The notes beneath the pieces are model-generated. The model saw only the letters and a program-made list of their open reading frames with translations, had not been told where the DNA came from and did not search any database. Position numbers and translations under genes: made by a program. From positions 1-41,603 of the forward strand of contig JAJFUP010000075.1 of NCBI GenBank assembly GCA_021372395.1: 41,603 bases of DNA. Reading direction: 5' to 3'. The DNA comes from Deltaproteobacteria bacterium (lineage in GTDB: Bacteria > Desulfobacterota > Desulfomonilia > UBA1062). Positions within the stretch are counted from its first letter, which is position 1. Each line of letters opens with the position of its first letter. This document shows, piece after piece, positions 12,135 through 41,017 of this stretch.

Positions 12135-12155
12135 GATGACCTGCTTTTTCTCATG

Positions 12156-16798: not shown

Positions 16799-17202
16799 GG
16801 ATTCCTCCTTGTAAGGAAATTGTTGCGTATTTAGACGATGCAGGGGATGATTATGATTCCAAGGCAACTGATAGATGCATCCCCGTTTGAGCTGTTCCCC
16901 CCAGGAAAGAGAGAAGCAACGGGTGTGCCAGGAACTCACAGGCAAGGGAGGGATGGTCATGATGGTGCCTGGTAACAGCAGGATAGGAGAGGTTCCGCAA
17001 ACCGGATCCATGAGCGGAGAGGCGCATGAGAGCGACCCATCAGGAAGCGGTGGATGGACAAGTCGAAAGGGTGAATGGGAAAGCCACAGGGGATACGGTT
17101 GCCAGGTGCCGACCCTCATCCCCTCATCGCTAGGGGCAAGGACTTTGACCGGTCTCTCGCAGGGTCGGACAGTTCGGGAAGAAAAGGGAGGATGAAGAGG
17201 AC
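16799..17202. other. Divergent intergenic region
   Basis: 404 bases between the exported protein (minus) and the transglutaminase-like gene (plus). It contains the sigma-54 promoter at 16916-16930. The remaining sequence shows no gene or strong hairpin that I can support, and no clear promoter for the plus-strand gene. Confidence 0.45.
16916..16930 (-). promoter_or_regulatory. Sigma-54 promoter of the exported protein gene
   Basis: Minus-strand TGGCACACCCGTTGC is an exact -24/-12 match. The predicted start near 16904 leaves a leader of about 105 bases to the ATG at 16798. Transcripts could run on into the activator gene at 15969. Confidence 0.85.
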
Positions 17203-17856
17203 ATGAGTGACCTGGAAGCATACCTCAGGCCGACCGACACCATTGACTGCAACCACGAGCGGATCCAGGCAACAGCTCACGAACTGATTACGGGCTGCAC
17301 TTCGACGGGAGAAAAGGCTCTCAGGCTCTTCTCTTTTGTCCGCGACGAGATTCCCTACAACCTCTACATGATCTCGGTCTTCAAGGAAGACTTCATGGCG
17401 TCGCGTATACTCGCGTGGGGCAAGGGCTACTGCGTACAGAAGGCGGTCCTGCTCGCCGCCCTGGCACGGGCTTCAGGCATCCCTGCAGGCCTCGCCTTTG
17501 CCAGGATCCGTAACCACAAGGCCCCTGCAAAGATCGTACAATTCACCGGGACCAACATTTTTCCCCGCCACGGATACACCCGGCTCTTCCTGGGAGACGC
17601 CTGGGTGAGCGTAGCCCCGACCTTTGATCGAGCCCTGTGCGAAAGGATCGGCGTTCCTGTCGTTGACTGGGACGGACAGGCAGACGCCACCCTCCCCGCA
17701 GAGGATTCCCACGGAGGGAAGTACATCGAGTACGTCGAAAAGTTCGGGTTCCATGCCGATCTGCCCTTTGACTGGATCGTGGCGGAGACATCGAAGAACG
17801 TGGGAAAAGACAAGAGACCCTGGATTACACGGGAAGACGTCCCGAAGGGATCCTGA
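17203..17856 (+). CDS. Transglutaminase-like cysteine protease-fold protein
   Basis: 217 residues. The likely catalytic triad is Cys in WGKGYCVQKAVLLAALARA, His in PRHGYTRLFLGDAWV and Asp in VAPTFDRA, the order found in transglutaminase/peptide N-glycanase-like domains. The N-terminal part (AHELITGCTSTGEKALRLFSFVRDEIPYNLY) matches the usual preceding helices. No signal peptide or membrane helix is seen, so it is probably cytoplasmic. Many bacterial members are proteases or amidases of unknown substrate. GAGG before the ATG supports the start. It stands alone on the plus strand between minus-strand operons. Confidence 0.82.
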   Translation: MSDLEAYLRPTDTIDCNHERIQATAHELITGCTSTGEKALRLFSFVRDEIPYNLYMISVFKEDFMASRILAWGKGYCVQKAVLLAALARASGIPAGLAFARIRNHKAPAKIVQFTGTNIFPRHGYTRLFLGDAWVSVAPTFDRALCERIGVPVVDWDGQADATLPAEDSHGGKYIEYVEKFGFHADLPFDWIVAETSKNVGKDKRPWITREDVPKGS

Positions 17857-17897
17857 TCGCGTCCCCTCGGCGGAGCTATCTTGAATGGGGTCTCCAT

Positions 17898-18935
17898 TCA
17901 GAAGATATGCACGGCAGATGTCTTGAACGAGATCCGCACGTTCGTGCCGATGTCCAGGCCCAGATCAACGGCCGAGCCCTTGGTGACGAGTGAAGTAAAC
18001 ACCACGTCCTGCACGGAGACGAGGATTTCGGAGAGGAAACCCTGGTCGATGATGCTCCTTATGACACCCTCAAACGAGTTGCGCATGCTCGATTCCAAGG
18101 GCTTGAGGCTGATCACGATATCCTCCGGCCTGACTGCGATGTTGCCGCTGGAGTTGTGGTGTGCGTGCGGTACCTCGACGGAGAGGGTGCCAACCCTGGC
18201 AGAGGTGCCGTTGAATGCGGCGGGGAAGATGTTCTTCATGCCCACAAAATCGGCTACGAAGGAGGAGGAAGGCCGCTGAAAGATGTCCCGGATCGTCCCG
18301 GTCTGCACGATTGCACCTTTGTTCATGATGGCCGCCTTGGTGGCGAGCGTCAGCGCCTCGGAAAAGTCGTGTGTCACCATGAAGAAGGTTATGCGCGAGC
18401 TCCGGTGAATCTGCTTGAGCAACGACCTGATTTCCTCCCTGAAGATCTGGTCGAGAGCCGAGAGCGGCTCGTCAAGGAGGATCACCCGGGGCTCCACCAT
18501 GAGTGCCCGTGCCAGGGCCACCCTCTGAAGTTCCCCGCCGCTCAGCGTTTCCGGGTGCCGGAGGAGCAGGTTGCCGATGCCGAGGTCATCCACAAGCTGC
18601 CCGAGCCGTTTCTCGGCAGACCTCCTGTCATGCCTTTTGTAGCGCAGGCCGAAGGTGATGTTGTGAGCGACTGTCAGGTGCGGGAACAGGGCATAGTCCT
18701 GGTACATGATGCCGACACCCCGTTTCTCCGGCGGCAATCGGGTCATGTCCCTGCCTCCGATGGCGATGCTCCCGCCTAGGACAGGAACCAACCCGGCAAT
18801 AGCCTCCAGCAGGACGGTCTTGCCGGCACCGGTGGGGCCCATGAGTACGAAGAAACTCCCGTCGTCAATGGAGAGGTCGATGTCTTTCAGGCGAAATTCG
18901 CCTAGGTGCGCCTTGAGTCCTCTGATTTCGATCAT
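17898..18935 (-). CDS. wtpC: Tungstate/molybdate ABC transporter ATP-binding protein
   Basis: 345 residues. Walker A GPTGAGKT, Q-loop MYQDYALFPHLTV, signature LSGGELQRVALARAL, Walker B VILLDEPLSALD and H-loop VTHDF are all intact. The C-terminal ~110 residues form a TOBE-like regulatory domain (IAVRPEDIVIS, GFLSEILVSV), typical of oxyanion and sugar importers. ATG at 18935 overlaps the permease gene by 4 bases (ATGA). The solute-binding protein identifies the substrate class; tungstate cannot be distinguished from molybdate by this subunit alone. Confidence 0.92.
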   Translation of the reverse strand: MIEIRGLKAHLGEFRLKDIDLSIDDGSFFVLMGPTGAGKTVLLEAIAGLVPVLGGSIAIGGRDMTRLPPEKRGVGIMYQDYALFPHLTVAHNITFGLRYKRHDRRSAEKRLGQLVDDLGIGNLLLRHPETLSGGELQRVALARALMVEPRVILLDEPLSALDQIFREEIRSLLKQIHRSSRITFFMVTHDFSEALTLATKAAIMNKGAIVQTGTIRDIFQRPSSSFVADFVGMKNIFPAAFNGTSARVGTLSVEVPHAHHNSSGNIAVRPEDIVISLKPLESSMRNSFEGVIRSIIDQGFLSEILVSVQDVVFTSLVTKGSAVDLGLDIGTNVRISFKTSAVHIF

Positions 18936-19717
18936 GATGTCTTCTTTCTCGGGAGGGCGAGGATCCTGAGGACCAGGAACAGCGTCAGGCATATGAGGAC
19001 CAGCCATACCGCCACTGGCTGGGAGTATTTGAGCCCGTACCCCTCGTAGCGTTCATAGATGAGCACCGGAGCGATCATCGGGTGATAGGCAACCACCACA
19101 ACGGCCCCGAACTCGCTGATGGCACGTGCACAGCACATGATGAGCCCGACCAGAACGCTTCGCCATGCAAGGGGGAAGGTGATCCTGACAAACGTGCTCC
19201 ACATGGTGGCGCCAAGGCTCCGGGAAACGTTTTCCAACCGGGGAGAGATGGCCTCGATCCCGGACTTGAGCGTATTGATATAGAAGGGCATGCCCACGAA
19301 GGTGAGAACGGTAATGATGCCTGTGGTGCTGCCCATGATCCTGATACCGATCTCACTCATGAAATGGCCCAGCCAATGGTTCCTTCCGGCCACGCTCAGG
19401 ATGGCGATGCCGACCACGGGATGCGGTATCACGATGGGCAGGTCAATGATGCCCTCGATGAGGTGCTTGCCCCTGAACTGTGATCGGGCGAGCACAAAGG
19501 CCAGCGGCGTGCCGAGCACGAAGGATATGCCCGCCGCCGAGACCGCCGTGTATATGCTCAGCCAGATCGAGTGTACGACCTCTTTGTCTTTGAGCGTTTC
19601 TTTGAGCATGGCAGAGGAGGGGGCCGTCATCATTTCAACGAGCGGCAGGAGAATGAATGCCAGGACCACGATGCCACAGGACACCGACACCCAGTAAAAC
19701 GGCTCCCTCCTCACCAT
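18932..19717 (-). CDS. wtpB: Tungstate/molybdate ABC transporter permease
   Basis: About 261 residues with five to six membrane helices, starting with FYWVSVSCGIVVLAFILLPL. The conserved cytoplasmic EAA-type loop is visible (ISPRLENVSRSLGATMWSTFVRITFPLA), followed by the oxyanion-permease segment CARAISEFGAVVVVAY. GTPLAFVLAR and DLPIVIPHPVVGIAIL are typical of ModB/WtpB. ATG at 19717 is chosen from family N-termini; a TTG at 19747 with AAGGTG upstream would add ten residues and overlap wtpA by 17 bases. Confidence 0.9.
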   Translation of the reverse strand: MVRREPFYWVSVSCGIVVLAFILLPLVEMMTAPSSAMLKETLKDKEVVHSIWLSIYTAVSAAGISFVLGTPLAFVLARSQFRGKHLIEGIIDLPIVIPHPVVGIAILSVAGRNHWLGHFMSEIGIRIMGSTTGIITVLTFVGMPFYINTLKSGIEAISPRLENVSRSLGATMWSTFVRITFPLAWRSVLVGLIMCCARAISEFGAVVVVAYHPMIAPVLIYERYEGYGLKYSQPVAVWLVLICLTLFLVLRILALPRKKTS

Positions 19718-19730
19718 GACAATCTGCCTG

Positions 19731-20720
19731 TTAGTCCTTAACTTCAACCAACACCTTCAGCTCTGCCGGCAGAAGGGATTTCATCTTTTCCGTAGGAACC
19801 CTGCAGGGAATGAAGGGCGGCTGGCCCTGGTCTTTCAAGACCTTCAAGCCGCCATTGGGGTCGAGCAGGTATTTGAGGAATGCGATCGCCGCCTCTTTGT
19901 TTGGGGCATTTCTGATGAGAGTGACCCCATACGTAACAGAATCTCCCTTCATTTCCATGAATTCACCGGGTTTATTCCCAGTCACCTTTACCACGGCCTG
20001 GGAATAGAACGGGTCCTGTTTGTAATTGCCGAGGTTGATCTCGTCAGGGAGGACCACATACTTCAGTCCTTGCTGCACGGCAACGGAGAGATACTCCCAC
20101 GCATAGTCCATGTTGCCGGACTGGAGCAGGGACACCAGCTCGACCGATTTGGGCCGGACATTCTCCTGGGGGCGGTTTGCAAGCAATTTGTCATACAGTC
20201 CTGGCTTTTTGTAGTACTTCTCCGCGAGCTGGAGCACCATCAGGGCACGGTATCCGCAGGGATCGAGGTTCGGGTCGGAGTGACCCCAGACAACCCCTTT
20301 GGTCTGGAGGATGTCATACCAGTTTTTCGCATTCACCTTACTGGCGAGCCTGCTCTTGTCCGTGTAACAGAGCACGAGCTGATTGGTGGCGAACCGGATA
20401 TTCCAGTCGGCATACTTGGGGACGAGAAGTTTGTCGATTACCTTGAAATCGGCGGATACCATGATATCGCAGGGTTTGTTCAGGTCGGTTACCTTGCGTG
20501 CAGCAGACTGGCTGCCACTGGCTTCACGCTGCAGGTCCACGCCCGGATACCTGGCCTCGAATGCCTTTTCCATGGCATCAAAGGGCATGGTCAAACTTCC
20601 CGCATGGAAGATGACGAGGGTCCCCTTCGGCTCAGCCAGGGCATGCGGCGGCGCTACGAATGCAACGACACCCATGATGATAAAAACCGCGGATATCTTA
20701 CTCAGACATGATTTTATCAC
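19731..20720 (-). CDS. wtpA: Tungstate/molybdate-binding periplasmic protein
   Basis: 329 residues with a signal peptide cleaved near HALA|EPKG. The binding-protein signature is [46 protein letters not shown] and [15 protein letters not shown], with [16 protein letters not shown] and AWEYLSVA later. These match the WtpA/ModA-like subgroup that binds tungstate and molybdate with octahedral coordination, better than classical ModA. The start is GTG at 20720, with AAGGAG eight bases upstream. First gene of wtpABC. The location between two ORP-type modules suggests it feeds their metal cluster. Confidence 0.9.
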
Positions 20721-21045
20721 GGTACATTCTCCTTATCGTAAGATTTTTGAATGGTTCTCGTCTGCTCTGGACGATCCATCTTGACCCTGCGACCAGCACA
20801 GACCATGCCAGGAAATATCCGGGGTGATACATTTCATAAACACGGCAGGATACCGGGATTATCCGATGAGCGGTGGGTGTGCGGACATGCCTCTAGAGTC
20901 TCTAATATGCGACCCATAAGCGACGTTATGTAGCATGCCTGCTACTGTAGCACCTGCGGCGGACCGGAAAGCACATACCGAGACATACTTCACCGATGCA
21001 GTCAATAAGGGGCTTCACGTCAAGACATCATTGCACAATGCACGT
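20721..21045. other. wtpA upstream region with inverted repeats
   Basis: 325 bases between activator stop and wtpA. GTAGCA / TGCTAC (20930-20935 and 20940-20945) is a perfect 6-bp inverted repeat, and CATAA / TTATG flank 20920-20925. Either could be an operator, or the first a weak terminator. A weak sigma-54-like site is listed separately. No gene is seen. Confidence 0.4.
20796..20810 (-). promoter_or_regulatory. Weak sigma-54-like promoter before wtpA
   Basis: Minus-strand TGGCATGGTCTGTGC agrees with the -24 element except for its last base and with the -12 element except for one T (GTGC for TTGC); spacing is correct. Predicted start near 20784, about 64 bases before the GTG. It is a plausible but unproved link of the transporter to the regulon. 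Confidence 0.35.
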
Positions 21046-22398
21046 CTATCTTCGTCTGCCTCGCCCGTCCGATTCAGGTATTTCAATACCGTGTGCGAGT
21101 ATCTTTCGGTAGAGCGTGCTGGCATTGATTCCCAGAGCATGGGCTGCTCTTTTCCGATTTCCGCTGTAGCGTCTGAGTGTTTCGACGATGAAGTGCTTTT
21201 CCATGGTATGCAGACTCATGGGGCCGAAGACGTCAGATCCCGATGCCGCAGCCGGGCGCAGTTCGGGCGGCAGATGGTGCAACTCGATGACGCTGCCGCG
21301 GCAGAGCGCGAAGGCCTGTTCTATGATGTTCTCCAGCTCGCGGACATTGCCCGGGAAGTCGTGCTCCATGAGGCGGGCCATGGCCTCTGGGGAAACGCCG
21401 GCTATGTCCTTGTCCTGCAGGTGATTGAACCTGGAAACGAGGTGGTCGACGAGCAGTGGGATGTCCTCCCGGCGCTGCTTCAGGCCGGGCAGCATAAGGT
21501 GAACGACGCGGATCCGGTAGTACAAGTCTTCCCGGAACGTGCCGGAACGGATGAGTTCTGCAAGGTTCTTGTTCGTGGCCGCCACCACTCGCACATCCAC
21601 CTTGACCGGTTCGACAGACCCCAGGGGTTCTATGATGTGATCCTGGAGAACCCGCAAAAGTTTTGCCTGCAGAGCCGGCGATATGTCCCCGATTTCGTCA
21701 AGGAAGAGGGTTCCACCGTGCGCAAGGGTGAACCGGCCTGCTTTGTCTCGCCTGGCATCGGTGAAAGCCCCGGCCTTGTGCCCGAACAGCTCGCTCTCCA
21801 GCAGGGTATCAGGCAGGGCCGCGCAGTTCACCGGGACGAAGCGTTTCTTCCTGCGGGGAGAGAGGTTGTGGATGGCCCGGGCGAAAAGCTCCTTTCCGGT
21901 GCCGCTGGGACCTTCAATGAGTACCGTACTGCTGCTCTGGGCGATCTGCGGCAGGATCTCGAAGAGATTCATCATGGCCGGGCTCCGTCCGATGATATCC
22001 TCAAAGGTCCGACGTCCCTCAAGTTTCTTCCGGAGCTGCTCGACCTGGCTCAGGTCCTGGAACGTCTCCACCCCCCCGATGTGGTTTCCTTCTTCGTCCC
22101 TGAGGATGGCCGACGAGATGCGGATCGGCACGCGCTGTCCCAGGATATTGATGATGTGGGCCGTGGCGTTCACCGTGGGCGTGCCGGTTGCGAGGGTACG
22201 CCGCAGGGCGCAGGCCTTCTCACAGATGTCCGCATGGAATACGTCGAAGCATGTCTTACCCAGAGCCTCTTCCCGGGATACGCCGGTAATGCGCTCGGCC
22301 GCACGGTTGAAAGAAGTTATACGCCAGTCCGAGCCCACCGTGAAAACACCCTCGTTGAGGGAATCCAGGATGATGTCACGTTCCTTCTGCTTCCCCAC
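21046..22398 (-). CDS. PAS-domain sigma-54-dependent activator (second copy)
   Basis: 450 residues, same plan as the activator at 14581. The PAS domain has Cys 50, 59 and 63 (GKTCFDVFHADICEKACAL) at identical spacing. The AAA+ domain has Walker A GPSGTGKE and Walker B GGTLFLDEIGD, but the sigma-54 contact loop reads GAFTDA instead of GAFTGA. The Fis-type HTH is SGNRKRAAHALGINASTLYRK. GTG at 22398 with AGGAGG five bases upstream is chosen; a TTG at 22461 opens the same frame without such a site. It is divergent from the second module and has likely binding sites in the shared gap, so it may also control itself. Confidence 0.92.
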   Translation of the reverse strand: MGKQKERDIILDSLNEGVFTVGSDWRITSFNRAAERITGVSREEALGKTCFDVFHADICEKACALRRTLATGTPTVNATAHIINILGQRVPIRISSAILRDEEGNHIGGVETFQDLSQVEQLRKKLEGRRTFEDIIGRSPAMMNLFEILPQIAQSSSTVLIEGPSGTGKELFARAIHNLSPRRKKRFVPVNCAALPDTLLESELFGHKAGAFTDARRDKAGRFTLAHGGTLFLDEIGDISPALQAKLLRVLQDHIIEPLGSVEPVKVDVRVVAATNKNLAELIRSGTFREDLYYRIRVVHLMLPGLKQRREDIPLLVDHLVSRFNHLQDKDIAGVSPEAMARLMEHDFPGNVRELENIIEQAFALCRGSVIELHHLPPELRPAAASGSDVFGPMSLHTMEKHFIVETLRRYSGNRKRAAHALGINASTLYRKILAHGIEIPESDGRGRRR

Positions 22399-22442
22399 CG
22401 GTTCCTCCTGTCGCACAAACTCCCCTTTACATTTTTTAGTAT

Positions 22443-22485
22443 TGCAACATGCAATAGTCAAGATTCTGATTTATTGCATATTGCA
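22443..22485. promoter_or_regulatory. Likely enhancer site for the second activator
   Basis: TGCAACATGCAATA (22443-22456) and TATTGCATATTGCA (22472-22485) are inverted copies with 13 of 14 matches. The centre is about 97 bases upstream of the sigma-54 -24 element, the usual place for an enhancer-binding protein. It also lies 45-90 bases before the activator's own start codon. Confidence 0.65.
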
Positions 22486-22560
22486 CGTATATTTTCTAAA
22501 AGCATTTTTAAACAATGTCTATCATGCTGAAATAATTGCTGGATTATCAATATGTGGAGA

Positions 22561-22575
22561 TGGCATCCCTATTGC
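22561..22575 (+). promoter_or_regulatory. Sigma-54 promoter of the second module
   Basis: TGGCATCCCTATTGC matches the -24/-12 consensus except for T at the last -24 base, which is a common variant. The -12 element ends only 12 bases before the ATG at 22588, so the predicted start falls on or next to the start codon. Confidence 0.8.
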
Positions 22576-22587
22576 TGATACATTCTC

Positions 22588-22980
22588 ATGAAGGTTGCGA
22601 TAGCCCATTGGGGAGAACGTATATCACCGGTCTTCGATGTGACAGATAGCCTGTATGTCGTCGAGATCGAGGGCAACAGGGAGATCCTTCGTGAAAGCAG
22701 GGCACTGATCAGCCGTCACCCCTTTCAGAGGGCCAGGGAGGTATCCGTGCTCGGGGTGGACGTGCTCGTGTGCGGGGCCCTGTCCCATGTTCTGGAAACC
22801 GCGCTCATGAGAGAAGGCATACAGGTGGCCGGATTCATCTGCGGCGACGTGGAGGGCGTTGTCGATTCCTTTATGGACAGACGGCTGACCGACGATCGTT
22901 TCATGATGCCCGGCTGTTGCGGCAACCGGCGGAGGCTCCGCATCCAGGGACGGAGGGGCGGGCATCGCTGGGGACGCTGA
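22588..22980 (+). CDS. NifX/NifB-type protein, first gene of the second module
   Basis: 130 residues, paralogue of the protein at 13988. Shared features are MKVAIA/MKVALS, RISPVFDV, VDVLVCGALSHVLE, GIQVAGFICGDVEGVVDSFM and the MPGC tail (MPGCCGNRRR). No Shine-Dalgarno sequence precedes the ATG (CATTCTCATGAAG), which together with the promoter position suggests leaderless translation. It is followed 49 bases later by the DUF5320-like gene. Confidence 0.88.
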   Translation: MKVAIAHWGERISPVFDVTDSLYVVEIEGNREILRESRALISRHPFQRAREVSVLGVDVLVCGALSHVLETALMREGIQVAGFICGDVEGVVDSFMDRRLTDDRFMMPGCCGNRRRLRIQGRRGGHRWGR

Positions 22981-23029
22981 AAAAAATGAACAGAATAAGA
23001 AAACCGATGGAAGAAAGGAGGAAAAGATC

Positions 23030-23404
23030 ATGCCGTTTGGAGATAGGACTGGACCTGTCGGGTTTGGACCGATGACGGGACGGAGGGGGGGATTCTGTTC
23101 CGGCTTCACTGCCCCCGGATACGTGAATTCCTTCCTCGGACAAGGCTTCGGGGGCCGGGGCAGAGGGTGCGGCCATGGCTGGCGGCACTGGTACCATGCA
23201 ACCGGCCTTCCGGGCTGGGAACGTTCGGCGGCCTTCCATCCCGCATGGGAAAGGGGTTGGCCTTGCGCTGAGCCAGCGGTCCCTCCTCTCGCGAGGGAAC
23301 AGGAGATTGAAGTTCTGAAGGGGCAGACAAAGTACCTGGAACAGACCTTGGAGGGTATCCGAAAACGGGTCGAAGAACTCCAGGTGAAGGGTATGCAGCC
23401 CTGA
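23030..23404 (+). CDS. DUF5320-like protein with C-terminal coiled coil
   Basis: 124 residues. N-terminus MPFGDRTGPVGFGPMTGRRG plus a Gly/Cys/Trp-rich middle (GQGFGGRGRGCGHGWRHWYH) is typical of DUF5320. The last ~40 residues form a predicted coiled coil (AREQEIEVLKGQTKYLEQTL, then RKRVEELQ). DUF5320 proteins regularly sit beside NifX/ORP genes; function unknown, though the His/Cys-rich middle could bind metal. AAAGGAGG precedes the ATG. The paralogue in the main operon (13461) is half this length. Confidence 0.82.
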   Translation: MPFGDRTGPVGFGPMTGRRGGFCSGFTAPGYVNSFLGQGFGGRGRGCGHGWRHWYHATGLPGWERSAAFHPAWERGWPCAEPAVPPLAREQEIEVLKGQTKYLEQTLEGIRKRVEELQVKGMQP

Positions 23405-23506
23405 GCAGCACCCGAATGGAGAGAAGCACACAAATCCGCCGGGACGATCGCCGGATGATTGTCATACTGGAGCGTTCCCTTCGGCAGAGAGAAAGGTAGG
23501 TGTTTC

Positions 23507-23950
23507 ATGAAGATTGCGGTTAGTTCAACAGGTCCTTCCCTGGACGCACAGGTAGAACCACGTTTCGGCAGGTGTCCGTGGTTTCTGGTGATGGAGACGG
23601 ACACCATGGAATTTCAAGCAATGGAGAATCCCAACATTGCCCTTGGAGGGGGGGCCGGCATCCAGGCTGCTCAGTTCGTGGCTGAAAAAGGGATTACGCA
23701 TGTTCTCACCGGCAATTGTGGACCCAACGCCCACCAGGCGCTTTCCGCGGCAGGGATCACCATCGTGGTCGGCTGTTCAGGTGTGGTCCGGGACATGATC
23801 GAAAAGTTCAAGAGTGGTCGGCTGTCCGCTTCGACCGGGGCTAACGTAGCCGATCATTTCGGTATGGGGCAGGGCTTGGGCAGAGGCGGCGGCATGGGTA
23901 TGCGTGGTGGTCGCGGCATGGGTAGAGGCGGCGGTAGGGGGAGGGGGTAG
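23507..23950 (+). CDS. NifX/ORP-family protein with Gly-Arg-Met-rich tail
   Basis: 147 residues. Residues 1-~115 match the orange-protein-like NifX protein at 13044: DAQVEPRFGRCPWFLV, GAGIQAAQFV, HVLTGNCGPNAHQALSAAGI. The remainder is a low-complexity tail of Gly, Arg and Met (GMGQGLGRGGGMGMRGG and similar) that the paralogue lacks. In such proteins the conserved domain carries the metal-sulfur cluster; the tail may be an interaction or metal-sequestering element. ATG at 23507 is set by the conserved first strand MKIAVSS; an in-frame GTG-like start at 23459 adds unrelated residues. A perfect hairpin begins at the stop codon. Confidence 0.9.
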   Translation: MKIAVSSTGPSLDAQVEPRFGRCPWFLVMETDTMEFQAMENPNIALGGGAGIQAAQFVAEKGITHVLTGNCGPNAHQALSAAGITIVVGCSGVVRDMIEKFKSGRLSASTGANVADHFGMGQGLGRGGGMGMRGGRGMGRGGGRGRG

Positions 23951-23970
23951 GCATCACAGGTGATGCCTAC
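23947..23970 (+). terminator. Perfect hairpin at the end of the second module
   Basis: GTAGGCATCAC and GTGATGCCTAC form an 11-bp perfect inverted repeat around AG, beginning in the last codons of the NifX gene. No U-run follows, so it may stabilise or attenuate rather than fully terminate. Confidence 0.55.
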
Positions 23971-31005: not shown

Positions 31006-31560
31006 TTAGAAGGGCTTCCCGAAGGTATCGAGGTGTACGAAATCTTTCAGCTCCTTGCGGGGTGGCCCCTGGCTGCCTTTCACTGCGGGCTTGCCGACGG
31101 GGAGGACTGCCACCACCTCGAATCCATCTGCCAGGCCGATGATCTTCTTGCAGGCGTCGTGGTCCATGAGCCCGACAACCACGGTCCCCAGCCCCAACTC
31201 GTGCGCCTTGAGACAGAGGTTCTGGACGGCGATGCCAAGATCGAACATGAACCAGTTCGGGAATTTGGTCACGTCATGGCCGCCGTAGCAGCCGGAAATG
31301 CCGGTCTTCGCACACGCCACGATGAGGGCCGAGGATGCGAGAGAGCCCTTGGTTGCGGGGTTCTTGTCCACGTAGGTGCCGGTTACCTGCTCGATGAGGC
31401 CCTTGTCGCGCACCACCACAAACTCCCACACCTGGGTGTTGGCCCAGGAGGGGGCCCACCTGGCGGCCTCGAGAATCTGCCTGATCTCGGCGTCCGTGAC
31501 GACGTAGTCGGTGAACTTTCGTACGCTCCTGCGGCCAAGGATTGCATCATTGAGCTCCAT
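31006..31560 (-). CDS. Nitroreductase-family flavoprotein
   Basis: 184 residues. FMN-binding start ILGRRSVRKFTDYVV, then ILEAARWAPSWANTQVWEFVVV and the conserved late segment HELGLGTVVVGLMDHD. These enzymes pass electrons from NAD(P)H to quinones, nitro-compounds or other acceptors; small anaerobe members often have unknown roles. AGGAGG precedes the ATG at 31560. The gene is separated from the acyl-CoA dehydrogenase by a terminator, so it probably has its own promoter. Association with beta-oxidation genes might mean an electron-transfer role, but this rests on position only. Confidence 0.9.
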   Translation of the reverse strand: MELNDAILGRRSVRKFTDYVVTDAEIRQILEAARWAPSWANTQVWEFVVVRDKGLIEQVTGTYVDKNPATKGSLASSALIVACAKTGISGCYGGHDVTKFPNWFMFDLGIAVQNLCLKAHELGLGTVVVGLMDHDACKKIIGLADGFEVVAVLPVGKPAVKGSQGPPRKELKDFVHLDTFGKPF

Positions 31561-33481: not shown

Positions 33482-33738
33482 CTCTCTCTCCTTTCGTGCG
33501 GGGTCATGATATCTTCGATAAAAGAATTTCTATAGTATACATACATTGTTCTCGAATATCCACGGTTTTGTGTGCTGCCGCTGTCCGAAAAGCGGCGCAG
33601 ATGAACCGGGATGGATTCTCACGTACCATCCGGTTGCCGTCCTGGCCTTAACCCCACTATGACCTTGATGTATTCGGGAAAAAAAGGTACTTTTCAAAGG
33701 TGCGGCTGGTGCGGTTTTTTCCATGACAGGGGGTGCGG

Positions 33739-34923
33739 ATGAAGGTCCTTATCATAGATCCCGTGGGTGGGATCAGCGGCGACATGCTCCTGGGAAGTCT
33801 GGTTCATCTCGGGTGTCCCGTGGGGTACCTGGAGGGTGTCTTTGCGTTGCTTGGTATCGGCCCGTTCCAGGTGCATGCGGAAGCTGATTCCATTAGCGGC
33901 ATCTCCTGCGTGAAGATGAAGTTCGACGTGCCCGATTCCCATGAAACGAGAACATACGCATCCATCCGTGACGAGATCCTCCCACGGCTCCCGGAGACGA
34001 TCAGGCTGAAGGCCCATGAGATCTTTCAGGCCCTCGCAGAGGCCGAAGCCTCTGTTCACGGAGGCCCCAGCGACGAGGTGCACTTCCACGAGGTCGGGGC
34101 CATGGATTCCATCCTCGATGTGGCGGGCATCTCCGCAGCGCTCGATTGGCTCCGTATAGAAAGGATCTATGCCAGGCCCGTGCCGCTGGGCTGCGGGCAG
34201 GTCGATTCCCTGCACGGCAGGATCCCTGTTCCTGCACCGGCAACCGTGAAGCTGCTCACCGGCCTCAAGGTGAGGTTCACCCCCATGGAGGCCGAGCTCA
34301 CCACGCCCACGGGAGCGGCGGTGCTCAAGGCCCTTGCCCAGGGTGCAGACCCGCCGGGAGATCTCGTCATGCAGGGGGTGGGTTACGGCTGCGGCACCAA
34401 GCGGTTCGAGAACTGGCCGAACCTCTGCAGGTCCATCCTGTGCGAAGCTGTCCAGGGAAGGGAAGACCGGCACGGCTACCTGGTGGAGGCGGACATCGAC
34501 GACATGACGGCAGAAGACGTGGAGGCTGCCCTGGGGAGGATCACGGACGCAGGGGCTCTGGATGTGAGTGTAACCCCGAGGATCATGAAGAGGGGAAGAC
34601 CCGGTGTCGGGATCAAGGCGATCTGCGACCAGGCGACCCTGCCCGAGGTCATGAAGGCGATCTTCCTGCACACCACCACCATAGGGGTGAGATACCATGC
34701 CATCGAGCGCGCGGTGCTGGCCAGGAGGCAGTACACCATTGCCACGCGATATGGAGAGGTGGGGATCAAGGAGGTAACCACCCCCGACGGCAGGGTGCGC
34801 TCCAAGCCCGAGTACCGGGACCTGTACGGGATTTCGTGCGCCTCGGGCATCCCCCTGTCGGACCTCAGGGCGGAGGTGGAGAGGGTCATGGCCGGGGGGA
34901 ACCGCAGAGGACGGGACGAGTGA
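33739..34923 (+). CDS. larC: Nickel-pincer cofactor nickel insertase LarC
   Basis: 394 residues. The start KVLIIDPVGGISGDMLLGSL and the internal VHFHEVGAMDSILDVAGISAA-type segment (HFHEVGAMDSILD) are diagnostic; PTGAAVLKALA and GYGCGTKRFENWPN follow. LarC is a CTP-dependent enzyme that inserts nickel into the dithio-carboxylated nucleotide made by LarB and LarE. It is a single continuous frame, whereas in Lactobacillus the two halves are joined by frameshifting. ATG at 33739 with AGGGGG upstream is preferred over a GTG two codons earlier. First gene of a plus-strand operon. Confidence 0.94.
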   Translation: MKVLIIDPVGGISGDMLLGSLVHLGCPVGYLEGVFALLGIGPFQVHAEADSISGISCVKMKFDVPDSHETRTYASIRDEILPRLPETIRLKAHEIFQALAEAEASVHGGPSDEVHFHEVGAMDSILDVAGISAALDWLRIERIYARPVPLGCGQVDSLHGRIPVPAPATVKLLTGLKVRFTPMEAELTTPTGAAVLKALAQGADPPGDLVMQGVGYGCGTKRFENWPNLCRSILCEAVQGREDRHGYLVEADIDDMTAEDVEAALGRITDAGALDVSVTPRIMKRGRPGVGIKAICDQATLPEVMKAIFLHTTTIGVRYHAIERAVLARRQYTIATRYGEVGIKEVTTPDGRVRSKPEYRDLYGISCASGIPLSDLRAEVERVMAGGNRRGRDE

Positions 34924-34972
34924 CGGATGGACCGTCACGGAGAATGATTCCCCAAAAGACAAGGAGTCGTGG

Positions 34973-35746
34973 ATGAAGAACCTGCTCGAGGCGTACAGGC
35001 GCGGAGAGCTCTCTGCCGAAGAGGTGGGAGAGCGGATGATGCGCATGCTCTACGATGAGGGGGAAGAGTTCCTCCTCGATCTCCACCGGGGAAAGCGCAT
35101 CGGTTTTCCCGAGGTCGTTTTTGCCGAGGGCAAGAGTGAAGAGCAGCTCCTCGCCATTACCGGATCCCTGTTCGCAAAGAACGGCCACGTGTTCATCTCC
35201 ACCATCGACGAGACAAAGGAACGCCTGGTCAGGGATGCCTTCCCCGGAGCCGAGATCAGGAAGGCGGGCAGAATCATGGCCCTCAAGAAGCAGGACCTCC
35301 GGGACGAAGGGCTCGGCTGCGTGGGAATCATCACTGCAGGCACCGCGGACGCCCCGTACGCGCAGGAGTGTGCGCTGATTCTCGAGGAGATCGGGGCCGA
35401 GGTCATCATGGCCATCGATCTCGGCGCCTCCGGGATGCACAGGCCGCTGCTCGGCCTCAAGAAGGCCCGTGGAGCCGACCTCCTCATCGTCTTTGCCGGC
35501 ATGGACGGCGTGCTCCCCACCCTCATGGGATCTCTCACAGATCAGCCCATCATAGCGGTCCCCACCCCGGTGGGATACGGGTTCGGAGGAGGAGGCATGG
35601 CAGCCCTTTCCACCATGCTCCAGTGCTGCGTGCCCGGGGTGCTCGTCGTGAACATCGGCAACACCGTGGGAGCGGCAGGTGCGGCCATACGGATCCTGAA
35701 GGCCATGAAGAGGGGAAAGGGTGAACGGGCGCAACACACTCTATGA
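34973..35746 (+). CDS. larB: Pyridinium-3,5-biscarboxylate mononucleotide synthase LarB
   Basis: 257 residues. The C-terminal half is a PurE-like domain: CVGIITAGTADAPYAQECA, IDLGASGMHRPL, VVFAGMDGVLPTLMGSL-like (FAGMDGVLPTLMGSL) and AVPTPVGYGFGGGG. LarB carboxylates and hydrolyses nicotinic acid adenine dinucleotide as the first step of nickel-pincer nucleotide synthesis. ATG at 34973 lies 49 bases after larC, and its end overlaps larE by 26 bases. Confidence 0.94.
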   Translation: MKNLLEAYRRGELSAEEVGERMMRMLYDEGEEFLLDLHRGKRIGFPEVVFAEGKSEEQLLAITGSLFAKNGHVFISTIDETKERLVRDAFPGAEIRKAGRIMALKKQDLRDEGLGCVGIITAGTADAPYAQECALILEEIGAEVIMAIDLGASGMHRPLLGLKKARGADLLIVFAGMDGVLPTLMGSLTDQPIIAVPTPVGYGFGGGGMAALSTMLQCCVPGVLVVNIGNTVGAAGAAIRILKAMKRGKGERAQHTL

Positions 35747-36527
35747 GGCCATATCGGCGAAGGGCAGCCTCCTGGTGCTCTTCTCGGGCGGACTCGACAG
35801 CACCGTGCTCGCGAAGATCGCCCTGGATGTCCTCGGAGGGGCTGCTTGCGCGCTCACCATCTCCTCGCCCATCATCCCCCGGGCCGACCTCGAAGAGGCC
35901 AGGGAGACGGCAGGGCTCATCGGCATCAGGCATGTGGTCCTGGAGCTGAACGAGCTCGAAGCAGACCCCGGATTTTCCGCGAACCCGCCCGACCGCTGCT
36001 ACCGGTGCCGGAAGCTCAGAAACGCCATTGTCCTCCCGTGGGCACACGGCCACGGGTTCGCCACGGTGGCGGACGGCCTGAACAGCTCCGAGCTCAAGGA
36101 TTACCGACCGGGGATCAAGGCCTCCTCCGAAGACGGGATCTGGCAGCCCTTCATCGAACTCGGCATCACCAAGGAAGAGCTCCGCACCATGGCGAAAGAC
36201 CTCGGTCTGCCGCAGTGGGACAGACCCGGCACGGTATGCCTGTGCTCCCGCTTCCCCTGCGGCTTTCCCCTCAGGGAAGAGCTGCTGAGGCGCGTGGAGG
36301 CGGCCGAGGAGTATGTGAGGGGACTCGGGTTCCTGGAGGTCAGGGTCAGGTATTTCCCCTATGACGTGGCCCTCGTGGAGGTGGATGACCCGGACAAGGC
36401 CGTCTACCACCGGAACCCCATCGTCGGGAGGCTTCGGGACCTGGGTTTTTCCTTTGTCAGCCTCGACCTCGAAGGGTTCGCGAGCGGGAAGATGAACCGG
36501 GTGATACCCGGGGCACAGAGATCATGA
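35721..36527 (+). CDS. larE: Sulfur transferase LarE, three-cysteine (4Fe-4S) type
   Basis: 268 residues. PP-loop ATP pyrophosphatase motif SGGLDST at residues 22-28, CYRCRK at ~93-98, and TVCLCSRFPCG with Cys 173, 175 and 180. LarE adds sulfur to both carboxylates of the cofactor precursor. In Lactobacillus a single Cys is sacrificed; proteins with three Cys here (as in Thermotoga) bind a 4Fe-4S cluster and can act repeatedly. This copy belongs to the latter type by motif. The start is GTG at 35721, within the end of larB, with AGGGGAAAGG just upstream. Confidence 0.93.
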   Translation: MNGRNTLYEAISAKGSLLVLFSGGLDSTVLAKIALDVLGGAACALTISSPIIPRADLEEARETAGLIGIRHVVLELNELEADPGFSANPPDRCYRCRKLRNAIVLPWAHGHGFATVADGLNSSELKDYRPGIKASSEDGIWQPFIELGITKEELRTMAKDLGLPQWDRPGTVCLCSRFPCGFPLREELLRRVEAAEEYVRGLGFLEVRVRYFPYDVALVEVDDPDKAVYHRNPIVGRLRDLGFSFVSLDLEGFASGKMNRVIPGAQRS

Positions 36528-36671
36528 GGTGTGATGCCGTGTCTCCCCTTCCCGGGGGATTGGGCAGGGAAGGGAGAGGCCGGGTGGAAGAGGAAACAGC
36601 GTGCTTTTGACCCGGACAGGGTTAGGGTGTCTGAAGGCATGTCCGGGCGTGAAGGGGGAGACATCTCGCGG

Positions 36672-37502
36672 ATGAAGCCCATTACCGCCATGACAGGACA
36701 AGAGATCGACAGGATAAAGGGTGTGCTCTTCGATATCGACGACACCTTTACGCTTGCCGGCCGGCTCATCCCCGAGGCCTTTTCCTCCCTGTGGAAGCTC
36801 CATGACAGGGGCCTCATCCTCGTGCCCATAACCGGCCGGCCTGCCGGATGGTGCGACCATATCGCCCGCATGTGGCCCGTGGACGCCGTGGTGGGTGAGA
36901 ACGGGGCCTTCTACTATTGCTACTGCACCCGGGAACGCAGGCTTTTGCGGAGATATGTCTCCGAGCCCGAGGCTGCGCGGGAAAAGAGGGCTTGCCTGGA
37001 GGAGATCAGGCAAGAGGTCCTCAAGCGGGTACCGGGGGCCGGTGTCGCTGCTGACCAGCATTTCAGGCTCTTTGACCTGGCCATCGATTTCTCCGAGGAT
37101 GTACCGGCCCTTTGCCCGGCTGATATCCGGGAGATCTGTGAGGTGTTCAAAAAGCACGGCGCCACCTGCAAGGTGAGCTCCATCCACGTGAATGGCTGGT
37201 TCGGAGGCTACGACAAGCTCTCCACCACGAAGCTGTTTCTCAGGGAGAGGCTCGACCTCGAGTGGGAGGATGCACGGCAGTCGTTCCTCTTCATCGGTGA
37301 CTCCCCCAATGACGAGCCCATGTTCGAGGCGTTTCCCCTCTCCGTCGGGGTGGCCAACCTGAGCAGGTTCGCCCCCACGATGAAATCTGTGCCGATGTTC
37401 ATCACTGCCGGCCAGGGGGGGCTCGGCTTTGCCGAGATGGCGCACCTCATAGCAGACGATGGTGCCCGCAAGACGAATCACCGCGAGGGGAGGCATCCAT
37501 GA
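36672..37502 (+). CDS. HAD-superfamily (IIB) phosphatase
   Basis: About 276 residues. HAD motif I GVLFDIDDTFT, motif II PITGRPAGW, and motif IV FIGDSPNDEPMF are all present, with the type-IIB cap between (GENGAFYYCYCTRERRLLRR onward). Sugar-phosphate phosphatases such as trehalose- and mannosyl-phosphoglycerate phosphatase have this plan; the substrate here is unknown. The frame is open from a GTG at 36531, but the 47 extra residues look unlike the family, so ATG at 36672 (AGGGGGAG upstream) is chosen with moderate certainty. It overlaps the DUF362 gene by 4 bases (ATGA). Confidence 0.87.
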   Translation: MKPITAMTGQEIDRIKGVLFDIDDTFTLAGRLIPEAFSSLWKLHDRGLILVPITGRPAGWCDHIARMWPVDAVVGENGAFYYCYCTRERRLLRRYVSEPEAAREKRACLEEIRQEVLKRVPGAGVAADQHFRLFDLAIDFSEDVPALCPADIREICEVFKKHGATCKVSSIHVNGWFGGYDKLSTTKLFLRERLDLEWEDARQSFLFIGDSPNDEPMFEAFPLSVGVANLSRFAPTMKSVPMFITAGQGGLGFAEMAHLIADDGARKTNHREGRHP

Positions 37503-38875
37503 GTGAAAAGGCCAGGGTTGCAATCGTCAGGGGGGAATTCCCCCTGAGCACCGCTCAGATAGAAGGGATGGTCGAAAGATCCCTTGACCTCATCGGGGGT
37601 CTCGCCGGGAGGATCGCTCGAGGCGACCACGTGGTGATCAAGCCGAACCTCTTTGCCCCGTACCCCCCGCCCGTCTCCGTGGACCGGCGGGTCATCGCCG
37701 CAACGGTGAGGCTTGCGCGCGAGGCTGGAGCCGCCAAAGTCACGGTCATCGAGGGGGTGAGCGTGGGCACGCTCATGAAGCGCGTGAACCCCGAGCGGTC
37801 CGTCTGCGGCGCCAGCCGGGGATACGGATCCGCCGAGGTGATGAAGATGCTCGGCGTCAAGAAGGCCGTGGAGGATGCAGGCGGCGAGGTGCTCGGGGTG
37901 GAGGATGCCGAGAAGGTTTTGGTGGACATCGAGGGAGGCATGGCCCTGCACCGGGTCTTCTACCCGAAGGTCGTGCTCGAGGCGGACTGTTTCATCAACA
38001 TCCCTGCCATGAAGACCCACACCATGACCATGGTGACCCTCGGGCTCAAGAACCTCCAGGGGCTCCTGGACGAGAAGGGCAGGTATTTCGCGCACCGGGA
38101 CGACCTGGACCAGCACATGGTTGACATCGGCAAGATCAGGCTGCCGGACCTGACGATCCTCGATGGCCTCATCGCCATGGAGGGCATGGGAGCAGGCGAA
38201 GGCGGCAGCCCCGTGGAGATGGGCCTCATCCTGGCAAGCAGCGACCCCGTGGCGCTGGACTGCGTCGCCTCCCAGTGCATGGGCATCGAGAACCCGCTCG
38301 TCGTGGGGACCACCCGCATTGCCAACCACGACGGACTCGGGTGCGGGAACCCGTTCCTCATCGAAGTAGCGGGCACCGGCATCCAGCAGGCCAGGAAGAA
38401 GCTCACGCTCCCCATCAACTACACGCAGCCCCTGGAGAGCATCGTGAGCGGCGTGTACCCGAACATCGATCTCTACATCGGGGGCGCCTGTCAGACGTGC
38501 TGGCTCATGGCCGCCATGGTTGAGGCCTCCCTTTCAAAGGTGCCGGAGAGATTTTCCCTGATCGTGGGCATTGATCCGAAGGTGCCGCCGAAGCTCAGGA
38601 CCGATCTCGAGCACACCTTTTTTCTCGGAGAGTGCGCCCTGGCTGCCACCGGTGAATTGCGCGAGATCCGAAACGAGATGCAGCTCAAGGGCATAGATCA
38701 TTTTCTCGGGGGCTGTCCCCCGTACGAGCAGGCCCTGGTGAAGCTGGAAGACGTCCTCATCGCCAGGGGAAGCCTCAAGGAGGAGGATCTGATCCACAAG
38801 GCCGTCGAGCACCGGGAACGGTTTTTCGACTACTACCGGTCCCACGACAGCACGTGGGAGCCGGAGATTTCCTGA
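37499..38875 (+). CDS. DUF362-family protein linked to the lar operon
   Basis: 458 residues. The DUF362 signature is clear: VVIKPNLFAP near the N-terminus, FINIPAMKTHTMTMVTLGLKN-type segment in the middle (PAMKTHTMTMVTLGLKNLQG), LTILDGLIAMEGMGAG, and SSDPVALDCVASQCMG. The last 130 residues contain conserved-looking Cys (IGGACQTCWLMAA and FLGGCPPYEQA) but no CxxCxxC ferredoxin motif. DUF362 members have no settled enzymatic role. Being co-translated with a lar operon that lacks larA, it could be a partner or user of the nickel cofactor; this is inference. Confidence 0.87.
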   Translation: MSEKARVAIVRGEFPLSTAQIEGMVERSLDLIGGLAGRIARGDHVVIKPNLFAPYPPPVSVDRRVIAATVRLAREAGAAKVTVIEGVSVGTLMKRVNPERSVCGASRGYGSAEVMKMLGVKKAVEDAGGEVLGVEDAEKVLVDIEGGMALHRVFYPKVVLEADCFINIPAMKTHTMTMVTLGLKNLQGLLDEKGRYFAHRDDLDQHMVDIGKIRLPDLTILDGLIAMEGMGAGEGGSPVEMGLILASSDPVALDCVASQCMGIENPLVVGTTRIANHDGLGCGNPFLIEVAGTGIQQARKKLTLPINYTQPLESIVSGVYPNIDLYIGGACQTCWLMAAMVEASLSKVPERFSLIVGIDPKVPPKLRTDLEHTFFLGECALAATGELREIRNEMQLKGIDHFLGGCPPYEQALVKLEDVLIARGSLKEEDLIHKAVEHRERFFDYYRSHDSTWEPEIS

Positions 38876-38914
38876 TGATGAAGAACCAGGAACGATCTGC
38901 CAAGGGAGGGGGTA

Positions 38915-40474
38915 ATGGCTGATAAAAATTATGTCATCGCGTTGGATTCGGGTACGCAGAGTGTCAGGGCGGTCCTTTTCGACAGGAAGGGCAGCGTGGT
39001 TGCCATGGCGCAGGCACCCCAGGAGCCATACTTCTCCTTGCAGCCGGGGTGGGCTGAACAGAGGCCCGAGGACTACTGGGCAAAGCTCTGCCAGGTGACG
39101 AACGCCCTGATGAAACAGATCACTATCGATCCCGGGGAGATCGCGGGCGTCGGGATCACGACCCAGCGCGGCACCTTTGTCCCGGTGGACAGGCAGGGCA
39201 ATGCCCTGCGACCTGCCATCATATGGCTCGACGAACGCACGGTCCCGGACCCGCCGCCGCTTTCCATGGCCGCCAAGGTGCTGTTCGGTGTCGCAGGGCT
39301 GTCCGAAGCCATCAACTACGTGAGGAGGCACTCGAAGTTCCTCTGGATAAAGCGAAACGAGCCCGACATCTACCGGAAGGCGTACAAGTTCATGCAGGTG
39401 TCCGGCTGGTTCGTGAACCGGCTCACGGGTGAGTTCAAGGACTCCGTGGGCATGGTTACCGGCATCTGGCCGCTCGATTTCAAGAAGCTCGCCTGGCACG
39501 GCCTGAAGGTTGCCTATGAGGCCTTCGGTCTCGAGCCGGAACACATGGTGGACATCTTCACCCCGGATACCGTGCTGGGACACATCTCCTCCCAGGCCAG
39601 CGCCGAGACCGGCCTGCCCGTGGGCCTGCCCGTAGTGGTGGGAGCGGGGGACAAGCAGTCCGAGCTGCTCGGCGCGGGTGCCATCGACCAGAGCATCGGG
39701 GTGATCAGCTACGGCACCGCCACCTGCATGGAGATCATCACCCGGAAGTACATCGCAGACAAGAACTTGCGGTTCTTCACCTGGCCGGCTGCCCTGCCGG
39801 GAGCGTGGGACATCGAGCTGTTCATCCACCGGGGTTTCTGGATGGTGACCTGGTTTAAGCAGGAATTCGGCTACCGGGAAGCCCTGGAGGCCGAGAAGCG
39901 CGGCATCGCACCCGAGGTGGTCTTCGACGAGAAGGTCAAGGACATTCCTCCCGGCTCCATGGGCCTGATGGTCCAGCCCTACTGGTCGCCCATGGTCTCT
40001 GCCAAGTATGCCAAGGGCTCCATCATCGGGTTCGGCGACGTGCATACCAGGGCCCACATCTACCGGGCCATCCTCGAGGGCCTCGGGTATGAGCTTCGCA
40101 GGCTCTACGAGGTCTTCCACGGCAAGACCGGGGTTACCCTTCAGGAGATCCGGGTCGGGGGCGGAGGGTCTCGGAGCGACGTGGCCGTGCAGATCGCCGC
40201 CGACATCTTCAATCTCCCCGCCTCACGGATGGCTACCTCCGAGATTTGCGCCCTGGGCGCTGCCATCGATGCAGCGGTGGGCACCGGCATGTTTGCCTCG
40301 TTCGACGAGGCGGTGGCCTCCATGGTGAAGAAAGGCCGGGTCTTCGAGCCCGATGCCGAAAATCACCGGGTGTACGAGGACCTCTACCAGGGGGTGTACC
40401 TGAAGACGTATGGCGCGCTGGAGCCCCTCTACAGGAAGATCGCTTCCATCACCGGCTACCCCCCGGAAGAATAG
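38915..40474 (+). CDS. FGGY-family carbohydrate kinase
   Basis: 519 residues, standard length. The first phosphate-binding loop is IALDSGTQSVRAVLFD; WAEQRPEDYW and GVGITTQRGTFVPVD follow. The catalytic Asp is in VGAGDKQSELLGAGAI, and the C-terminal nucleotide site is IRVGGGGSRSDVAVQIAADI. The family phosphorylates sugars and polyols such as xylulose, glycerol or gluconate; the protein is not close enough by eye to name the sugar. GGGAGGGGG precedes the ATG. Following larCBE and a phosphatase suggests a pathway for a sugar or hydroxy-acid. Confidence 0.92.
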   Translation: MADKNYVIALDSGTQSVRAVLFDRKGSVVAMAQAPQEPYFSLQPGWAEQRPEDYWAKLCQVTNALMKQITIDPGEIAGVGITTQRGTFVPVDRQGNALRPAIIWLDERTVPDPPPLSMAAKVLFGVAGLSEAINYVRRHSKFLWIKRNEPDIYRKAYKFMQVSGWFVNRLTGEFKDSVGMVTGIWPLDFKKLAWHGLKVAYEAFGLEPEHMVDIFTPDTVLGHISSQASAETGLPVGLPVVVGAGDKQSELLGAGAIDQSIGVISYGTATCMEIITRKYIADKNLRFFTWPAALPGAWDIELFIHRGFWMVTWFKQEFGYREALEAEKRGIAPEVVFDEKVKDIPPGSMGLMVQPYWSPMVSAKYAKGSIIGFGDVHTRAHIYRAILEGLGYELRRLYEVFHGKTGVTLQEIRVGGGGSRSDVAVQIAADIFNLPASRMATSEICALGAAIDAAVGTGMFASFDEAVASMVKKGRVFEPDAENHRVYEDLYQGVYLKTYGALEPLYRKIASITGYPPEE

Positions 40475-40594
40475 GTCGTCAGGGAAAGTAAATAGATGCA
40501 AGCAAAGAAATACGTGGGGGTTGGCGGGTGCCGAGCAGGGCCTGCCCAGGGAGATCGCTTACCTTCGGCGCAAGAATGGTGTATAAAAGCGGCC

Positions 40595-41017
40595 ATGACG
40601 AAGACAGAAAAAGCTCGTGCTCTTTTCTCCGAGGGGTACTCCTGTGCCCAGTCAGTGCTCATGGCATTTTCAGCGCCCCTGGGCCTCGATGAGGCCCAGG
40701 CTGCAAAAGTTTCCTGCGCCTTCGGCGGAGGGATCTCGCACATGGGGCTCACCTGCGGGGCTGTGACCGGAGCGCTCATGGTCATCGGACTCAGGCATGG
40801 CGGGGGCCCGGAAACCAAGGCCCCGACGTACGTCGTCGCGAACGACTTCATCTCCCGGTTCTCCGCCGTCCACGGCTCCATCAACTGCACCGAGCTCACC
40901 GGCTACGATCTGAGCGACCCTGATCAGCTGGCCGAGGCAAGGGCCAGGGGCGTCTTTACCGCGCGATGCAGAAGGTACGTCGAGACTGCCGTAACGATCC
41001 TCGAAGAGCTCGGGTAG
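40595..41017 (+). CDS. C_GCAxxG_C_C family redox protein
   Basis: 140 residues. The motif pattern is visible: ARALFSEGYSCAQSVLMAF, CAFGGGISHMGLTCGAVTGAL and INCTELTGYDL, with a final Cys (ARCRRYVETAV). The family is named for these conserved Cys and Gly; some members are thought to bind iron-sulfur clusters or act in redox, function unproved. No clear ribosome site precedes ATG 40595; a longer frame from 40496 is possible but starts with unrelated residues. Last gene of the plus-strand run, 120 bases after the kinase. Confidence 0.85.
   Translation: MTKTEKARALFSEGYSCAQSVLMAFSAPLGLDEAQAAKVSCAFGGGISHMGLTCGAVTGALMVIGLRHGGGPETKAPTYVVANDFISRFSAVHGSINCTELTGYDLSDPDQLAEARARGVFTARCRRYVETAVTILEELG

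Follow-up and report, generated by a model that had tools for sequence, protein, structure and literature searches.

Which enzyme is served by the nickel-pincer nucleotide (NPN) that the larCBE genes of this locus would make? The window, meaning the whole stretch of 41,603 nucleotides that was analyzed, carries at 33733-41017 on the forward strand seven open reading frames in which the three cofactor genes are followed by genes for a HAD-IIB phosphatase, a DUF362 protein, an FGGY kinase and a C_GCAxxG_C_C protein. No Lar_N gene was found within the window. The original prediction was that NPN might serve an enzyme acting on a sugar acid or related hydroxy-compound, and DUF362 was singled out as the only large protein of the set that had no assigned role. 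The features are as follows.

33733..34923, forward strand: larC, last step of NPN synthesis (NCBIfam TIGR00299, 183.7 bits, cut-off 90; NF052512, 125 bits, cut-off 50; Pfam PF01969).
34973..35746, forward strand: larB, pyridinium carboxylase/hydrolase of NPN synthesis (NCBIfam NF033503, 218.4 bits, cut-off 175).
35721..36527, forward strand: larE, sulfur insertase (NCBIfam TIGR00268, 247.8 bits, cut-off 150).
36672..37502, forward strand: HAD-IIB phosphatase, a conserved partner of DUF362 (NCBIfam HAD-SF-IIB).
37499..38875, forward strand: DUF362 protein of 458 aa (Pfam PF04015; AlphaFold model; Foldseek; alignments).
38012..38095, forward strand: K172-x-H174-x9-K184-x14-H199 motif of the DUF362 protein (hhalign; conservation in alignments).
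38915..40474, forward strand: FGGY-family carbohydrate/polyol kinase, a conserved module partner (FGGY_N/C over the Pfam cut-offs).
40496..41017, forward strand: C_GCAxxG_C_C redox protein (over the Pfam cut-off), likely start about 40595.

Families were called at curated cut-offs, those of NCBIfam equivalogs for LarC, LarB and LarE and those of Pfam for DUF362, FGGY and C_GCAxxG_C_C, and all seven reading frames were confirmed in the order, strand and families predicted. Equivalog-level matches were obtained for all three NPN genes within the one cluster. The larC gene is a single unbroken frame with LarC1 and LarC2 and no programmed frameshift; in three other genomes (G061, G081, G090) the LarC1 and LarC2 parts lie at separate places on different contigs. 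The LarE sequence carries CYRC and CLCSRFPC motifs and may resemble the three-cysteine [4Fe-4S] type of LarE (PMC9283937). The FGGY kinase scored under every NCBIfam equivalog cut-off, the nearest being XylB, AI-2 kinase and glycerol kinase.

The genes had been described as joined by overlaps or short gaps, which holds for larB/larE (26 nt overlap) and HAD/DUF362 (4 nt overlap) but not for the larE/HAD joint. The HAD frame is open from 36531, but its start is very probably at 36672, as the alignments to homologues begin only at residue 37-48, and larE and HAD are therefore about 144 bp apart. One transcript over the gene set is plausible; a search for promoter and terminator signals in the set returned none above chance. 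Elsewhere in the window a nitroreductase-family gene lies at 31006-31560, with an acyl-CoA dehydrogenase gene between it and larC. Two further stretches of the window, 9985-13031 and 17898-20720, were interpreted from their ORFs alone: they appear to hold Mrp/ParA-type ATPase genes that carry ferredoxin motifs and, next to PAS-sigma54 regulators, an ABC importer of oxyanion (tungstate/molybdate-like) type.

A genome-wide search was performed for LarA in the source MAG (2.99 Mb, 98.7% complete) and returned a single clear hit (G000:C301:8969-9559, reverse strand, E 5e-52). The original statement that LarA is missing is correct for the window and incorrect for the genome, and the proposed orphan supply of cofactor is not upheld. 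The LarA of contig C301 is 429 aa long, has all canonical LarA residues and adjoins two subunits of a 2-hydroxyacyl-CoA dehydratase (HGD-D), neighbors that would suit a role as 2-hydroxyacid racemase. Among 42 genomes of the class, LarB was over its cut-off in 38 and LarA was found in 33, and comparison of the listed places showed that the two loci are never neighbors; LarC and LarA loci are likewise never neighbors in Chloroflexota. As larA does not adjoin larB or larC in any of the relatives surveyed, a window that shows larCBE but no larA is ordinary. A larA elsewhere that is clearly served by the operon had been named as one of two observations that would speak against the prediction, and the C301 LarA, which could be served by larCBE, goes part of the way. 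DUF362 is not needed to explain larCBE, since the genome also has LarA. This gives rise to a reading that we regard as a real contender short of even odds: larCBE serves only the C301 LarA, a 2-hydroxyacid racemase feeding the 2-hydroxyacyl-CoA dehydratase, while DUF362 is LarA-like yet NPN-free and belongs to a mobile module that landed here once. The intact catalytic residues of the C301 LarA, its HGD-D neighbors and the gap between larE and HAD all speak for it.

The kinship of DUF362 with LarA was evaluated by fold and by sequence profile. The window protein matches PF04015 with 157.5 bits at a cut-off of 24 over domain positions 1-199 of 200 and gives a weak match to NF052623 (NCBIfam); of the two Pfam families DUF362 alone was reported for it, with no match to Lar_N (PF09861). 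An AlphaFold model (pLDDT 79, pTM 0.80) was compared with the PDB using Foldseek, and all 19 matches at E < 0.001 were LarA-family proteins (top matches 6c1w at 1.4e-7, 5huq, 9q3k, 9eia, 2yjg and 6d6z), the best of them NPN-loaded forms; the first protein of another kind was at E 0.018. The two-domain LarA fold is predicted across the full length, with alignments of up to 531 columns for the 458-residue query. TM-scores are low (0.31–0.38), pLDDT falls to about 62 around H174 and H199, and identity in the structural alignments is about 10–16%. In hhalign the DUF362 profile scored 39.8–46.6 against LarA (E 3.5e-4 to 3.9e-5) and 81 against a bridging LarA-like group (E 6e-10), as compared with 17–21 for nine unrelated control families; these values came with broader DUF362 sampling, narrow alignments being not significant (E 0.17–0.2). 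Some single proteins of Chloroflexota match both Pfam families, DUF362 and Lar_N. As phmmer and a profile search against PDB sequences returned no relative of the window protein, the kinship is visible only by fold and profile-profile comparison. DUF362 and DUF2088 (Lar_N) belong to one Pfam clan, CL0471 (PMC11770544). Predicted structure and profile comparison together place the window DUF362 protein among the remote members of the LarA fold family.

In the hhalign alignment H174, K184 and H199 of DUF362 correspond to H190, K200 and H216 in the LarA of the same genome and to H174, K184 and H200 of L. plantarum LarA, which are the catalytic histidine, the NPN-tethering lysine and the nickel-ligand histidine respectively (PMC11770544). 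Spacing of the three positions is nearly identical in the two families, and K184 and H199 are invariant in alignment A3. A counterpart of the catalytic His108 of LarA was not found, the aligned stretch EGVSVG having no histidine; the stretch aligned to the phosphate-binding R75 region of LarA has diverged, with invariant K48 and N50 close by. The LarA-like N-terminal domain is followed by a C-terminal domain with conserved C331, C334, C379 and C406, of which C334, C379 and C406 are invariant across the window, c8 and L007 types of DUF362. Many DUF362 proteins bear ferredoxin domains, and the window protein belongs to a subtype that has the four cysteines and no ferredoxin domain. The K-x-H-x9-K-N motif occurs in nearly all sampled DUF362 sequences, ferredoxin-bearing ones included (for example HFKGHLASGFGGAIKN, as compared with HVHVGFGGGAK in LarA); the search pattern matches about 7% of shuffled sequences by chance.

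Linkage of DUF362 to lar genes was surveyed next to the window and beyond it. A divergent nitroreductase gene is often found upstream of larCBE in the window's family, and this different fixed neighbor favors a larCBE set that serves LarA only. Nitroreductase-family genes divergent from or close to larC were seen at L100, L101, L113, L114, L115 and L031. Two genomes, that of the window and G024 (L031/L083), have HAD-DUF362-FGGY downstream of larCBE, and probably so does G028, in which one contig (L108) ends with larC-larB-larE-HAD and another (L088) begins with the end of a HAD gene, an alkyl-DHAP synthase gene and DUF362. The full arrangement of nitroreductase, larCBE, HAD, DUF362 and FGGY thereby occurs in two genera, with a third probable; in G022 larCBE is followed by FGGY only (L113). 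The module adjoins larCBE in at most 3 of 17 carriers, which counts against the reading of DUF362 as an NPN enzyme.

A second type of DUF362, 432 aa long, about 25% identical to that of the window and of the same DUF362-plus-cysteine architecture, is the convergent neighbor of larE in nine relatives, among them G030 and G033 of the window's own genus. It lies about 5 kb from larE in G032, also of that genus, which brings the total to 10 relatives. The chance of a DUF362 gene within 5 kb is about 3% (7 DUF362 genes in 3 Mb), and the presence of two different arrangements in one family exceeds this, a suggestive result that was obtained post hoc and with genomes of each arrangement that are not independent. 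Outside the family, a Streptomyces plasmid (NZ_CP109481.1, 2.35 Mb; positions 30000-54000 read as L214) has larE, larB, larC and DUF362. Within 8275-16380 of L214, larE, larB and larC are packed closely together with genes for DAHP synthase and isochorismate synthase in a single run. A cyclase gene and a gene for a DUF362 of window-like architecture are transcribed away from this run, and an NRPS gene is adjacent at 17053-23952; no match to LarA was obtained in the 24 kb read. This looks like a natural-product cluster making NPN or an NPN precursor.

Widespread larCBE-DUF362 linkage was rejected for the sister family, as DUF362 was found within about 7 kb of larB in none of 20 loci, a result that also favors the LarA-only role of larCBE. 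In Chloroflexota 1 of 32 larB loci had a DUF362 gene nearby (G104; L143:5414-6526), in which larB-larE-larC is followed 2.1 kb downstream on the same strand by a frame-broken DUF362, which may be a true pseudogene or reflect a misassembly. The survey that had been suggested for the linkage therefore gave a divided answer: it recurs in the window genome and 1–2 others, in the 10 relatives with the second type and in Streptomyces, but it is not general. Linkage in the window is suggestive, but limited to certain lineages.

The HAD-DUF362-FGGY module was then considered in its own right. Orthologues of the window DUF362 (58–81% identity) were found in 8 genomes from the window's family, with a fragment in a ninth, and further orthologues in MAGs labelled Chloroflexi/Dehalococcoidia, Aminicenantes, Desulfobacteraceae and, in one case, Spirochaetes. 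Where the contig suffices the FGGY kinase directly follows (not found in L082), and HAD precedes except at contig ends and in L094, where it was not found. The C_GCAxxG_C_C gene is absent beside orthologous modules and falls outside the conserved set. In most genomes, across phyla, the module is complete without larCBE, again in favor of an NPN-free DUF362. Many copies include an alkyl-DHAP-synthase-type FAD enzyme, for which the best PDB match is alkyldihydroxyacetonephosphate synthase (2uuu, E 6.6e-76), and other copies include a glycerol-3-phosphate dehydrogenase/oxidase-like protein; in L092 and L093 a glycerol-1-phosphate-dehydrogenase-like protein follows FGGY. The window genome has its alkyl-DHAP-synthase-type and GlpD-like genes apart from the module, side by side on contig C178. 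We read the module as a pathway of glycerol-phosphate or ether-lipid type that would make or break ethers. The sugar-acid substrate of the original prediction is not supported by name, as the partner genes point to glycerol-phosphate/ether chemistry.

A conserved gene set of anaerobes was also seen around DUF362 (L089:3558-12574, L092:367-4718, L093:325-4749, L164, L165), comprising the alkyl-DHAP-synthase-type FAD enzyme, a GlpD-like protein, FGGY kinases, HAD and DUF362 and in places the glycerol-1-phosphate-dehydrogenase-like protein, possibly a glycerol-ether pathway. Right after FGGY in Chloroflexi MAGs lies a protein of 650–671 aa (L089:12974-14989, L091:3557-5569, L095:13270-15223), and for the copy in L089 neither Pfam nor NCBIfam gave a match.

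Co-occurrence with NPN genes was examined at the level of genomes. LarB or LarC is present in 15 of the 17 genomes with an orthologous module, the two others being an 82%-complete MAG and the Spirochaetes MAG, in which our guess is that the module contig is mis-binned. Among 61 Chloroflexota genomes LarC was present in 14 of 16 with a strong DUF362 match as compared with 18 of 45 without (p 0.001), and all 15 genomes with a strong, motif-intact DUF362 have LarC or LarA as compared with 36 of 61 overall (chance 8e-5). In seven Chloroflexota genomes that have a DUF362 relative and in which LarC and LarA were not found, the histidine and lysine are lost; six of these are of one clade and the seventh is G077. 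The proteins with the lost motif are L190-L195 and L153 (G059, G088, G112, G079, G096, G070 and G077). DUF362 tracks LarA as much as LarC, and the correlation with LarC could arise from shared anaerobic life. The idea that DUF362 generally replaces a missing LarA was not supported in Chloroflexota, as DUF362 is present in 2 of 10 genomes with LarC and no LarA. A 6.9 Mb Chloroflexota genome (G063) has a strong LarA, 13 DUF362 hits and no LarB or LarC found, and represents either an incomplete assembly or a LarA without cofactor genes of its own.

Several observations count against an NPN role, among them the missing counterpart of His108, the uncertain equivalent of R75, the low TM-scores and the low pLDDT around H174 and H199. 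Three archaeal MAGs (L097-L099) keep H-x9-K with no NPN genes found, a Parabacteroides DUF362 known from the protein alone keeps it as well, and Bacteroides ihuae has DUF362 with LarC not found. H-x9-K alone was rejected as proof of NPN, since it is kept in the DUF362 of organisms without detected NPN genes. In 14 control genomes LarC was present in 6, DUF362 in 5 and both in 4; the latter include S. elongatus and H. volcanii, in which LarA was not found.

Taken together, we favor, at a probability of about one half, that the window DUF362 protein is a LarA-fold enzyme that carries NPN and acts alongside a kinase and a phosphatase in a pathway connected with glycerol-phosphate ether chemistry. 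From gene content, fold similarity, residue correspondence and conserved partners we infer NPN binding, hydride chemistry and a type of substrate. In this scheme DUF362 would be loaded with NPN from the LarB, LarE and LarC encoded next to it. Lys184 would form the tether, His199 would supply the fourth ligand to nickel and His174 would act as general acid/base; the cofactor would take up hydride transiently from a hydroxyl-bearing substrate. The HAD-IIB phosphatase and the FGGY kinase would belong to the same pathway as DUF362. Since this pathway in relatives also has the alkyl-DHAP-synthase-type enzyme and glycerol-3-/glycerol-1-phosphate dehydrogenases, a polyol resembling glycerol(-phosphate) or alkylglycerol is the probable substrate. 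The same larCBE set would also serve the true LarA on contig C301.

The reading in which that LarA is the only client leaves unexplained the second DUF362 type beside larE in 10 relatives, same genus included, the larEBC-DUF362 cluster of Streptomyces, the conserved H/K/H residues and the loss of the motif in those Chloroflexota that have neither LarC nor LarA. That DUF362 instead uses another cofactor, a pyridine or flavin nucleotide or Fe-S/Zn on its C-terminal cysteines, as a redox or carrier protein with an ancestral resemblance to LarA only, is improbable: motif-intact DUF362 in Bacteroidota and archaeal MAGs where NPN genes were not found, the three cysteines invariant across types and the frequent ferredoxin domains would fit, but no other cofactor family rose above noise in Foldseek, and the lar linkage and the motif loss in NPN-less Chloroflexota would have no explanation. 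The proposal of DUF362 as an NPN enzyme gains support from fold, NPN residues, recurrent linkage and motif loss, and by homology and residues the protein is a serious candidate, and a candidate only, for NPN binding.

It is conceivable, if on balance unlikely, that a large part of DUF362 constitutes a second, unrecognized family of NPN-dependent enzymes that ranges from glycerol-ether metabolism to natural-product clusters. Equally tentative is the suggestion that the family accounts for some NPN-making microbes without LarA, such as S. elongatus and H. volcanii. If true, DUF362 would be a second large enzyme family using this organonickel cofactor, and a domain of unknown function would acquire a function. 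DUF362 is a widespread family, and a LarA-fold DUF362 with tether and nickel-ligand residues beside lar genes has now been seen in two phyla and possibly a third. No proposal of NPN in DUF362 was found in the literature searched; the sole mention joining both families is the use of DUF362 as a phylogenetic outgroup, its only role in that study (PMC11770544).

Compared with LarA and the nickel-dependent hydroxyacid racemases (PF09861, CL0471), the window DUF362 is alike in its two-domain fold, three residue positions and adjacent larCBE, but scores as DUF362 rather than Lar_N, lacks His108 and has C-terminal conserved cysteines. LarA_Bw and LarA_Sp (PMC12611868, PDB 9q3j/9q3k), which are among the best structural matches, resemble it in having one catalytic histidine and a carbohydrate-like gene context. 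These proteins keep His108 and lose His174, whereas the window DUF362 keeps His174 and has no His108, and unlike DUF362 they are true LarA homologues by sequence. Within the DUF362 family (PF04015), which includes the cyanobacterial Npun_F2552 family, the window protein matches full-length and differs in its linkage to larCBE and to the HAD/FGGY/alkyl-DHAP-synthase-type module. About 15% of genomes have larB, larC and larE without larA, and NPN-binding proteins beyond LarA have been predicted there (PMC11796402). The window genome differs from these in having LarA, with DUF362 offered as an additional NPN user, and DUF362 thereby becomes a named candidate for the missing NPN users of larA-less genomes.
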